Position numbers and translations under genes: made by a program. This document shows, piece by piece, positions 6,289 through 9,512 of a DNA stretch of 64,000 bases (position 1 is the stretch's first letter; every line of letters starts with the position of its first letter). This stretch comes from Parvibaculaceae bacterium (GTDB lineage: Bacteria > Pseudomonadota > Alphaproteobacteria > Parvibaculales > Parvibaculaceae), in contig JAPWJY010000009.1 of assembly GCA_028283765.1 (NCBI GenBank), forward strand, positions 124,001 through 188,000. The letters are read 5' to 3'. The notes under the pieces are model-generated. The model was given only the letters and a program-made list of their open reading frames with translations, was not told the DNA's origin and did not search any database.

Positions 6289-6375
6289 GCGGGTGTGGTG
6301 GAATTGGTAGACGCGCTGGACTCAAAATCCAGTTCTGGTGACAGAGTGCCGGTTCGACCCCGGCCACCCGCACCA
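6289..6375 (+). tRNA. tRNA-Leu, anticodon CAA
   Basis: 87 bases with encoded CCA. The acceptor arms GCGGGTG (6289-6295) and CACCCGC (6365-6371) pair perfectly. The anticodon arm is CTGGA / CTCAAAA / TCCAG, with CAA as anticodon, reading UUG. The extra arm is long, as in class II leucine tRNAs, and the T arm carries GGTTCGACC. A run of six T (within 6378-6388) just downstream may help end transcription. Confidence 0.96.
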
Positions 6376-6455: not shown

Positions 6456-6917
6456 TCAGTGCTCGTGCGCCAGCAGATGGTCCCTGATGGTGGATATGCC
6501 GGCCTGAATCCTGTCGAGATCGTCCCGCGATATGTCCATCGCTTCAAGGATGCAGGGGGGAATGGCCGCCGCCCGGGCGCGCAGGGCCCGTCCCTGGTCC
6601 GTCAGACAGACGCGGAGTTGTCGTTCGTCTTCGGGATCGCGTGTGCGGGCAACATAGCCGAGGCCCTCGAGCCGCTTCAGCATGGGCGTCAGCGTGTTCG
6701 ATTCAAGGTAGAGCGCCTGCCCGAGCGCCTTGACCGTCTGTTCATCCTTCGACCATAGCGCCACCATCAGCAGATATTGCGGATAGGTCAGCCCGATCTC
6801 GTCCAGCAGGGGGCGGTAGACCTGATTGAAGGCATGCCCGGCCGAATAGATCGAAAAACACAGGAACTCATCAAGGGCAAGGCCGTCGCCCGTCTTCTGT
6901 CCAGGCTGTTCAGCCAT
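6456..6917 (-). CDS. ohrR: OhrR-type MarR-family transcriptional regulator
   Basis: 153 residues. The sequence follows OhrR: FLCFSIYSAGHAFNQVYRPLLDEIGLTYPQ at the N-terminus, then a winged helix with LESNTLTPMLKRLE and DERQ in the wing. Cys20 sits at the place of the peroxide-sensing cysteine of OhrR, whose oxidation by organic hydroperoxide releases DNA. The usual target, ohr, is absent; instead the gene is divergent from a TAT-exported hydrolase, with palindromes between them. I set the start at 6917, which follows GAGGAG; the open frame extends 25 codons further up with no protein-like sequence. Regulation of both genes by this protein is likely but inferred. Confidence 0.87.
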   Translation of the reverse strand: MAEQPGQKTGDGLALDEFLCFSIYSAGHAFNQVYRPLLDEIGLTYPQYLLMVALWSKDEQTVKALGQALYLESNTLTPMLKRLEGLGYVARTRDPEDERQLRVCLTDQGRALRARAAAIPPCILEAMDISRDDLDRIQAGISTIRDHLLAHEH

Positions 6918-6959
6918 TTCGCTTCTCCTCGGGAATAAATCGTAGCGACAAGGATATAA

Positions 6960-6971
6960 ATCGTGCACGAT
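6960..6971. promoter_or_regulatory. Perfect 12-bp palindrome, candidate OhrR operator
   Basis: ATCGTGCACGAT is its own reverse complement and lies 43 bases upstream of the regulator start. The same half-site (ATCGTG-ACGAT) recurs in the larger inverted repeat at 7017-7041, which fits two binding sites for one MarR-type dimer. A shorter related half-site (AAATCGTAGCGA) lies at about 6937-6948. Confidence 0.6.
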
Positions 6972-6985
6972 GCAATCGCAAGCGC

Positions 6986-7015
6986 TTGACAACCGAAACG
7001 GAATAGATCAAATAA
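6986..7015 (+). promoter_or_regulatory. Candidate promoter of the hydrolase gene
   Basis: TTGACA at 6986-6991 is a perfect -35 box. The best -10 matches after 17-18 bases are weak (CAAATA or AAATAA, 7009-7015). The large inverted repeat begins right after, where transcription would start, so a bound repressor would block it. Confidence 0.5.
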
Positions 7016-7016
7016 C

Positions 7017-7041
7017 TCGTACACGATCTAATCGTGTACGA
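7017..7041. promoter_or_regulatory. Perfect 11+3+11 inverted repeat, candidate OhrR operator
   Basis: TCGTACACGAT (7017-7027), spacer CTA, then its exact reverse complement ATCGTGTACGA (7031-7041). It covers the expected transcription start of the hydrolase gene and shares its half-site with the palindrome at 6960-6971. The arrangement is typical of a repressor site. Confidence 0.65.
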
Positions 7042-7091
7042 TATTGACGAACAGATCGAGTTCGGAGCTTACCCGCAACGGAGGTCATCGA

Positions 7092-8060
7092 ATGACCCAG
7101 GACGCACCTCATCGCTTTTCACTCACACGCAGAAACGCTCTCGTCGCCGGCGGCACGCTTGCAGCAGCCCTGACGCTGCCGGGATCCCTGAACGCCGCGA
7201 CCACATCAGCTCAACCCTCGAAACGTGGAGAACCCGCCATGAGCACCATCACCACCCGGGACGGAACCAGAATCGCCTACAAGGACTGGGGCAAGGGACA
7301 GCCAATTCTTTTCTCGCATGGCTGGCCGCTGGCCGGCGATGCCTGGGACGCGCAGATGCTGTACTTCGGCCAGAACGGCTACCGCGTCATCGCCCATGAC
7401 CGTCGCGGCCACGGCAAGTCGGACCAGCCCTGGGACGGCAACAACATGGACCAGTATGCCGACGACCTTGCGGAACTGATCGAAAAGCTCGACCTGAAGA
7501 ACCTGATCCTGATCGGCCACTCGACGGGCGGTGGCGAGGTTGTGCACTACATCGGCCGCCACGGCACCAGCCGCGTTGCCAAGGTAGTGCTCGTCGGCGC
7601 CGTTCCCCCGCTCATGCTGAAGACGCCGGCCAATCCGGAAGGGACGCCGCTCGAGGTTTTCGACGGCATCCGCCAGGGCACCGCGACCAACCGCTCGCAG
7701 TTCTTTCTGGACCTGACGATGCCCTTCTATGGCTTCAACCGCGAAGGCGCGAAGGTGAACGAGGGTTTGCGCGAATCCTTCTGGCTGATGGGCATGGAGG
7801 GCGGCATCAAGGGCGAATATGACTGCATCCATGAATTCTCGGAAGTGGACTATACGGCGGATCTCCTGAAGATCGACAAGCCCACCCTCGTCATCCATGG
7901 CGACGACGACCAGATCGTGCCGATCGCGGCGGCCGGGCTGAAGACCGCAAAGATCGTCAAGGGCGCCGAGCTGAAGATCTACAAGGGCGGCTGCCATGGC
8001 CTCGCCCAGCTCGATCCCGAAACCTTCAACGCCGACGTGCTCCGCTTCATCAAGGCGTGA
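7092..8060 (+). CDS. TAT-exported alpha/beta hydrolase, non-heme chloroperoxidase-like
   Basis: 322 residues. The first 36 form a twin-arginine signal ([12 protein letters not shown], Arg13-Arg14, then a hydrophobic stretch ending GSLNA). The mature part matches cofactor-free haloperoxidases/perhydrolases: oxyanion HGWPL, nucleophile Ser144 in GHSTGGG, Asp273 in HGDDDQIVP and His302 in GGCHGL. Such enzymes hydrolyse esters and, with a carboxylate and peroxide, form peracids. The start at 7092 follows GGAGG (7080-7084). A second in-frame ATG at 7240, also behind a GGAG, would give a cytoplasmic form without the signal. Likely repressed by the divergent OhrR-like protein, which would link it to peroxide stress; the in vivo substrate is unknown. 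Confidence 0.87.
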
Positions 8061-8067
8061 CAATAAC

Positions 8068-8093
8068 CGGAGCGGTGCCCATGCACCGCTCCG
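8068..8093. repeat. Perfect 11-bp hairpin downstream of the hydrolase gene
   Basis: CGGAGCGGTGC, loop CCAT, GCACCGCTCCG, starting 8 bases after the stop codon. There is no T run after it, so it may be a weak terminator or an mRNA 3' end stabiliser rather than a classical terminator. Confidence 0.55.
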
Positions 8094-8201: not shown

Positions 8202-9512
8202 ATGACCGAACTCGACATCCCCGCTGAACCGAACCCTTCAGAGATCGTCAAGCAGCCTGAACGGCCGAAGCTCCTCCAGATACTGGGACCGGGCCTCATC
8301 ACCGGCGCGTCTGACGACGACCCGAGCGGCATCGCCACCTATTCGCAGGTCGGCGCAGGGTTTGGCTACCAGATGGGCTGGGTCATGCTGTTCAGCTGGC
8401 CGCTGATGTGCGCCATCCAGGAAATCAGCGCCCGCATCGGGCGCGTGACCGGACGGGGCATCGCCGGCAATCTGAAGCGGCATTATCCGTCATGGATGGT
8501 CTCCAGCATCGTCTCGCTGCTGGTGGCCGCCAATGTCATCAATATCGGGGCGGACCTTGGCGCCATGGGCGCCGCATTGAAACTGCTGATCGGCGGCCCG
8601 GCGCTCCTCTATGTCGCCCTGTTTGCGCTTGTCTCCGTGCTCCTTGAGGTCTTCTCCCGTTATTCCCGCTACGTCTCCGTTCTCAAATGGCTGACCCTGT
8701 CGCTGTTCGCCTATGTCGGCATCGCCTTCGTGGTCCATCTTCCCTGGCGTACCATCGGCTATGCGCTGCTCGTGCCGCATATCAGATTCGACACCTCCTA
8801 CATCACGGCGGTCGTCGCCATCCTCGGCACGACGATCAGCCCCTACCTGTTCTTCTGGCAGGCGGAAGAGGAGGTGGAAGAGGTCCGGGAGCGGCCGCTG
8901 GCAAGGCCGCTCGGACGCGCGCCGGAGCAGGCGCCCGCGGAATTCAGACGCATCCGGATCGACACCTATGTCGGGATGGCGCTCTCCAACGCGGTCGCGC
9001 TCTTCATCATCCTGACCACGGCGGCAACCCTGAACGCCCACGGCATAACCGACATCCAGACCTCGTCGCAGGCCGCCGAGGCGCTCCGGCCCATCGCGGG
9101 GCCCCTTTCATTCTTTATTTTTGCCCTGGGCATCATCGGCACGGGCCTGCTGGCCCTGCCCGTGCTGGCCGGCTCCTCCGCCTACGCCGTCGGCGAAATG
9201 TTCGGCTGGCATGTGGGCCTTGCCCGCAAGGCCATGGAAGCCAAGGCCTTCTACGCCACGCTGACCGTGGCGACGGTCATCGGCGCCGCTCTCAATTTCA
9301 GCCCCGTCGATCCGATCAAGGCCCTGTTCTGGAGCGCGGTCATCAATGGCGTCGTCGCCGTGCCGGTGATGGCCATCATGATGCACCTGTCGAGCCATCG
9401 CGCGGCCATGGGCGATTTCCAGCTGCATGCCGGCCTCAAGATCGTCGGCTGGCTTGCCACAGCCGTCATGGCCGCCGCCGCCATCGGCCTTTTTGCAACC
9501 TGGGGCGGATAA
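8202..9512 (+). CDS. NRAMP-related divalent cation transporter (SLC11-like)
   Basis: 436 residues with about eleven membrane helices. The first helix begins GPGLITGASDDDPSGIATYSQVGAG, matching the NRAMP helix-1 motif. The metal-binding DPGN of Mn/Fe NRAMPs reads DPSG here (Asp40-Gly43), and the helix-6 Met-Pro-His region reads GTTISPYLFFWQAEEEVEE, without the methionine. This points to the divergent, non-classical branch of the family, some members of which carry Mg2+; the substrate here is inferred. A charged cytoplasmic insertion (about 225-250) follows helix 6. The ATG at 8202 has GAGGGG upstream; a GTG at 8184 is possible. Distance from the hydrolase gene is 141 bases. Confidence 0.82.
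   Translation: MTELDIPAEPNPSEIVKQPERPKLLQILGPGLITGASDDDPSGIATYSQVGAGFGYQMGWVMLFSWPLMCAIQEISARIGRVTGRGIAGNLKRHYPSWMVSSIVSLLVAANVINIGADLGAMGAALKLLIGGPALLYVALFALVSVLLEVFSRYSRYVSVLKWLTLSLFAYVGIAFVVHLPWRTIGYALLVPHIRFDTSYITAVVAILGTTISPYLFFWQAEEEVEEVRERPLARPLGRAPEQAPAEFRRIRIDTYVGMALSNAVALFIILTTAATLNAHGITDIQTSSQAAEALRPIAGPLSFFIFALGIIGTGLLALPVLAGSSAYAVGEMFGWHVGLARKAMEAKAFYATLTVATVIGAALNFSPVDPIKALFWSAVINGVVAVPVMAIMMHLSSHRAAMGDFQLHAGLKIVGWLATAVMAAAAIGLFATWGG

Follow-up and report, generated by a model that had tools for sequence, protein, structure and literature searches.

In OhrR-family repressors, oxidation of an N-terminal cysteine releases the repressor. The OhrR-ohr systems of X. campestris, B. 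subtilis and S. meliloti (SMc00098/SMc00040) share with the locus analysed here, which lies in a 64,000-nucleotide stretch of a Parvibaculaceae bacterium genome (the window, to which all positions refer), the regulator family, the reactive cysteine and the paired boxes. Their target, Ohr, is however absent from this locus, and its boxes read ACGAT where theirs read ACAAT. The same genome also carries an ohrR-ohr pair elsewhere, on a different contig (L012, L018), so that the pair in the window represents a second, dedicated branch. On an Azospirillum plasmid (L102), an alpha/beta hydrolase gene, ohr and an OhrR-type gene stand in a row, a possible link of the two systems.

A closer counterpart is the S. 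meliloti pair SMc01945/SMc01944, whose source is said to be Barloy-Hubler et al. 2004, a paper with a title that reportedly speaks of induction by oxidative stresses. In the accessible text of PMC3107159, SMc01945 is given as an OhrR-like repressor, 40% identical to X. campestris OhrR, and the adjoining cpo gene (SMc01944) as encoding a secreted peroxidase. The window resembles this pair in its adjacent OhrR-like and secreted peroxidase genes, and it contains a divergent OhrR-like gene, a Tat-leadered Cpo and two boxes. The preliminary description of this DNA had coupled an OhrR-type regulator to a periplasmic enzyme; the sequence supports that idea in part. It is right in outline but not new, since such a pair has already been published from a relative.

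Among the loci that we compared, S. meliloti Ak57 (L092), which we infer from gene order and similarity to be the SMc01945/SMc01944 locus, matches the window in its divergent order, promoter layout, Tat leader and pair of boxes, which are spaced by 54 bp; its enzyme core is 57% identical, its regulator has a single Cys, and it lacks the internal start described below. The pAt pair ATU_RS24260/24265 of A. fabrum C58 likewise consists of divergent MarR and alpha/beta hydrolase genes with boxes 56 bp apart and an enzyme 72% identical to that of the window, but it is without a leader and has a second alpha/beta hydrolase gene behind it. Leaderless cpo versions are found in plasmid loci of A. fabrum C58, Shinella and Pluralibacter, each followed by a second hydrolase gene; in the plasmid loci L087, L088, L090, L091 and L101, this second alpha/beta hydrolase gene after cpo measures 768 nt. 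It is as if cpo and the second hydrolase were a two-gene unit moving between Rhizobiaceae and an enterobacterial plasmid. Overall, an OhrR-like gene was found beside the enzyme gene in 23 of 140 distinct core homologues, with short flanks searched.

Regulator and enzyme of the divergent locus

The two genes and their immediate features are as follows.

6456-6917, minus strand: OhrR-type MarR regulator, 153 aa, with Cys20, Cys104 and Cys122 (domain, structure and cysteine comparisons)
7080-7084, plus strand: Shine-Dalgarno GGAGG of the full-length start at 7092 (sequence)
7092-8060, plus strand: cpo, a Tat-leadered non-heme chloroperoxidase-like alpha/beta hydrolase, 322 aa (structure and domain matches)
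7092-7238, plus strand: Tat leader and linker, residues 1-49, with TRRNAL, a hydrophobic stretch and LNA (motif and hydropathy)
8068-8093, no strand: 11-bp hairpin after cpo, a possible transcript end (scan; T tail on the minus strand only)

A tRNA-Leu (CAA) gene lies close behind the regulator gene (6289-6375). Downstream of cpo, an Nramp-type metal transporter gene (8202-9512) has a strong Pfam Nramp match and falls under the NCBIfam Nramp cut-offs.

Comparison of the regulator to solved structures shows that its nearest matches are X. campestris OhrR (2pfb, E = 1.7e-37; 2pex, E = 3.2e-36) and B. subtilis OhrR (1z91, E = 6.6e-32). The MarR winged-helix domain PF01047 is matched with 56.7 bits (cut-off 24.6), and the best of the 10 models matched is the NCBIfam OhrR equivalog NF052638 (TransRegOhrRVib), with 140.5 bits, under its cut-off of 200. 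Within the motif LCFSIYSAG, which holds the LCFxxYSA cysteine, Cys20 aligns with Cys22 of X. campestris OhrR, and Tyr24 and Tyr34 likewise align with 2pfb; tyrosines close to the reactive cysteine are a functional feature of OhrR-type proteins. The N-terminal cysteine of the LCFxxYSA motif is present in all 23 cpo-linked regulators. A second cysteine at the position of X. campestris Cys127 is absent, and Cys122 of the regulator aligns three residues earlier, about one helical turn away, so that two-Cys chemistry via Cys122 is possible. One-Cys OhrR proteins exist, and the missing match to Cys127 is therefore compatible with OhrR membership. The structure matches and the aligned cysteine support assignment of the regulator to the OhrR clade, in agreement with the preliminary description.

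The enzyme matches chloroperoxidase F (1a8s) over residues 52-321 (E = 8.7e-119), and its STGGG, HGDDDQ and CHGL stretches, presumably the carriers of the catalytic residues, align with the nucleophile, Asp and His regions of 1a8s. The likeness to the non-heme chloroperoxidase/arylesterase family (1a8s, 1a88, 3hi4) thus comprises the core fold and these three regions, whereas the Tat leader and the internal start lie outside the aligned core. The leader contains a twin arginine, a hydrophobic stretch and a cleavage-like site. These matches support the assignment of the cpo product to the non-heme haloperoxidase/arylesterase family, as a member with a Tat leader.

Operator boxes and predicted promoters

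The region to which the preliminary description referred, 6918-7091, is exactly the gap between the two divergent start codons, because the regulator ATG lies at 6915-6917 and the hydrolase ATG at 7092-7094. Two perfect palindromes around a TTGACA had been noted there, and both were found as claimed, with TTGACA (6986-6991) between them.

6960-6971, no strand: perfect 12-bp palindrome ATCGTGCACGAT, the first site of the preliminary description (read from sequence)
7017-7041, no strand: perfect 25-bp inverted repeat TCGTACACGAT-CTA-ATCGTGTACGA, its second site (read from sequence)

The arms of the 25-bp repeat measure 11 nt, are 100% complementary and enclose a spacer of 3 nt; when 6918-7091 was shuffled 2000 times with dinucleotides preserved, perfect arms of at least 11 nt with a gap of at most 10 nt appeared once. 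With at most one mismatch, ATCGTRYACGAT occurs four times in the window, against an expectation of 0.27, and none of 100 shuffles had as many. A genome-wide search (3,236,079 bases) located exact ATCGTRYACGAT in only two places, both within the gap, among 24 places with at most one mismatch. Given the shuffle result and the location of both exact matches, the palindrome and the inverted repeat are unlikely to have arisen by chance.

To identify what is conserved, we aligned the gap with nine other divergent regulator-cpo gaps (10 rows; same-locus copies were omitted, as were L077 and L079, the gaps of which are of a different kind). The alignment shows a conserved AATAAWYYG...CGATNNAATYGCAAG, with a few departures, followed by TTGAC; in the rows that extend that far, another element of this kind comes immediately after the -10. 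The unit common to the aligned gaps is the 13-bp box RCRATNNNATYGY; the relatives keep this OhrR box while the outer half varies, which rules out the 12-mer ATCGTGCACGAT as a conserved operator unit. The claim of two sites thus stands, but the conserved unit is the box ACGATNNNATCGY (6967-6979 and 7023-7035), which partly overlaps ATCGTGCACGAT, and not ATCGTGCACGAT itself. In the two omitted loci, a lipoprotein-leader Cpo is accompanied by a divergent OhrR-like gene, and the gap has TATCGCGATA-type repeats, not an OhrR-type box.

6967-6979, no strand: left box of OhrR type, ACGATGCAATCGC, within the promoter predicted for the regulator (all 10 fixed positions matched; alignment)
7023-7035, no strand: right box of OhrR type, ACGATCTAATCGT, where cpo transcription is predicted to start (alignment and box scan)
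6976-6981, minus strand: predicted regulator -35, TTGCGA (from TTGCGA-N17-TATATC)
6953-6958, minus strand: predicted regulator -10, TATATC (17 nt past TTGCGA; equivalent hexamers seen by eye in relatives)
6986-6991, plus strand: predicted cpo -35, TTGACA (sequence and alignment of relatives)
7009-7014, plus strand: predicted cpo -10, CAAATA (17 nt after TTGACA; CAAATA, CATATA or TAAATA there in several relatives)

The two boxes are 56 bp apart; the left one occupies the spacer of the predicted regulator promoter, between its -35 and -10, and the right one lies over the expected transcription start of cpo, so that the regulator's own predicted promoter and that of its putative target each carry one of the pair. 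As read from the sequence, the arrangement is that of a divergent repressor under autoregulation. A strict sigma-70 scan of the gap 6918-7091 listed neither of the two predicted promoters. The geometry of promoters and boxes is kept in Sinorhizobium and largely kept in Agrobacterium, Shinella and the Pluralibacter plasmid.

Boxes with at least 9 of the 10 fixed positions precede 18 of the 23 regulators linked to cpo, 21 of the 31 linked to ohr and 12 of the 26 others; the corresponding frequency in shuffled sequences was 0.01-0.12 per locus overall and 0.035-0.095 for the cpo-linked loci. Two boxes at a distance of 54-56 bp were present in 9 of the 23 cpo-linked loci (L001, L020, L088, L091, L092, L093, L101, L107 and L108), some of which are near relatives of one another. 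In the window's own family, ohr-linked loci have the box ACAATTCCATTGC and similar ones, with ACAAT replacing ACGAT; the operators here are accordingly OhrR boxes that differ by a single base in each arm. We rejected the possibility that the box is private to cpo-linked regulators, because ACGAT- or GCGAT-type boxes lie upstream of the ohr-linked regulators L039, L041, L096 and L099, and the box alone therefore cannot separate the two systems. An operator common with the genome's own ohrR (L012) was likewise ruled out, as no box with at least 9 of 10 positions occurs within 220 nt upstream of that gene.

A candidate start at the leader/enzyme junction

The regulatory pairing is of a known kind; the less expected part of the locus is a conserved candidate internal start at the junction of leader and enzyme.

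7239-7241, plus strand: candidate internal start, in-frame ATG (Met50) (homologue comparison)
7227-7230, plus strand: candidate internal Shine-Dalgarno GGAG, including the Gly46 codon GGA (8 nt before the ATG)

Leaderless relatives begin with MSTITT, MSFITT, MSTFTT or similar, and the same residues run from Met50 of the window enzyme. For the comparison, we drew enzyme rows from 219 loci, chosen by similarity to the window enzyme or the window regulator, and retained tblastn matches with E at most 1e-60 that reached core residue 20 or lower and 240 or higher; collapsing of copies left 140 rows, which were assigned to leader classes by a twin-arginine and hydropathy rule. Junction starts were searched within three codons on either side for ATG and within one codon for GTG and TTG.

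Among the 40 Tat-leadered homologues, 33 have a start codon at the junction (32 ATG, 1 GTG), and seven do not (L092, L093, L121, L188, L195, L202 and L205). By comparison, within three codons of a randomly chosen core position, an ATG occurs in 15.9% of cases, and an ATG plus a Shine-Dalgarno 4-mer in 1.2%. AGGA, GGAG, GAGG or AAGG lies 4-10 nt upstream of 29 of the 33 junction starts vs. 19 of the 252 remaining in-frame core ATGs of the same 40 genes (Fisher values for the junction-start counts ignore the relatedness of the genes). Glycine in the last five linker codons is encoded by GGA in 27 of 29 cases, compared to 53 of 1165 in the cores. Leaderless rows have a start codon at the junction place in 78 of 90 cases, 71 of these 78 with a Shine-Dalgarno 4-mer. 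The junction ATG is present in both lipoprotein-leader homologues (L077, L079) and absent from six of the eight rows with other hydrophobic leaders. An internal start in use would leave such a pattern in the sequences. In public records, the E. canadensis gene and one A. tumefaciens gene (L080 2621, L082 2540) are annotated from the internal ATG onwards, which omits the in-frame upstream Tat leader.

In the literature searched, which left most subscription papers outside reach, we found no report of an internal start in this enzyme family. Events of this kind are known, since N-terminal proteoforms differing by the signal sequence are reported for Salmonella PagC, OmpX and SseL in the accessible text of PMC11005335.

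The proposed switch and its alternatives

We consider it likely that the locus is a divergent stress switch, in which an OhrR-type repressor acting on two boxes controls both itself and the hydrolase; binding, repression, oxidant sensing, use of the internal start and enzyme activity are inferred. Dimers of the regulator would bind the left box, in the spacer between the regulator's own -35 and -10, and the right box, just downstream of the hydrolase -10, and the reduced regulator on both boxes would keep both genes repressed. Oxidation of Cys20 by organic hydroperoxide, possibly also by hypochlorite, would cause release, and both genes would be made. The hydrolase mRNA would then offer two starts in one frame, one at 7092 for a Tat-exported precursor and one at 7239, after GGAG, for a leaderless cytoplasmic enzyme. 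That the enzyme is made in these two forms, exported and cytoplasmic, under one repressor is a reading that we favour by a small margin. The leader and the family match bear out the Tat-exported chloroperoxidase-like partner of the preliminary description, but the internal start suggests that the enzyme may not be only extracytoplasmic.

The same switch could operate with an enzyme that is solely a Tat-exported precursor, the junction ATG and GGAG being relics of a cytoplasmic ancestor with a recently added leader, which we regard as the somewhat less plausible reading. On a weakly supported enzyme tree (138 rows; L106 and L152 were left out because of early stops), the Tat label is scattered, with 21 changes and with Tat and leaderless forms interleaved, so that a single origin of the leader is not supported and the internal start may be a passive relic in some lineages; the S. 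meliloti relative, moreover, is leadered and has no internal start. Conversely, ATG and GGA are kept in all six members of one supported clade of leadered genes and in all seven members of a group that includes the window, although fourfold core sites are only 50% identical in either group, and the linkers of the 33 genes, taken together, have a single Met at positions -1 to -12. These groups with saturated silent sites speak against a relic in the lineages concerned, an argument limited by the weak support of the seven-gene group as a clade.

Other explanations concern the signal and the sites. The regulator might sense something other than peroxide, for example hypochlorite or a substrate of the hydrolase (a phenolic compound or an ester), as is the case for other MarR proteins. 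The reactive cysteine and the two tyrosines aligned with X. campestris OhrR, together with the reported title of the S. meliloti cpo paper (Barloy-Hubler et al. 2004), make such a signal unlikely, even though SydR, an OhrR-like MarR protein of S. meliloti, lost binding in vitro with hypochlorite and not with tBOOH or H2O2 according to the accessible text of PMC11633110. It is highly improbable that the sites are not operators of this MarR protein but belong to a different regulator or form hairpins at transcript ends: on the minus strand, the 25-bp repeat does read as a hairpin followed by a T-rich tail, but the distances between boxes and promoters are conserved in several genera, and the boxes match those of ohr-linked OhrR genes of the same family save for one base per arm.

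Under the divergent switch, the pairing points to a role for a promiscuous enzyme family, which probably handles oxidants or their products under the control of a peroxide sensor. Beyond the window, we lean slightly towards the view that, in Pseudomonadota, a functional internal ribosome-binding site and start codon are widely retained precisely at the leader/enzyme junction of Tat-leadered haloperoxidase/perhydrolase genes; a single gene under oxidant control would then serve both periplasm and cytoplasm, and gene finders would annotate either form. If the internal start is real, it would provide a conserved and easily tested case of one bacterial gene supplying two compartments under one stress switch, and would explain why some public records start such genes inside the leadered frame; assays of the short form and reports of secretion would then each cover half of the gene's output.
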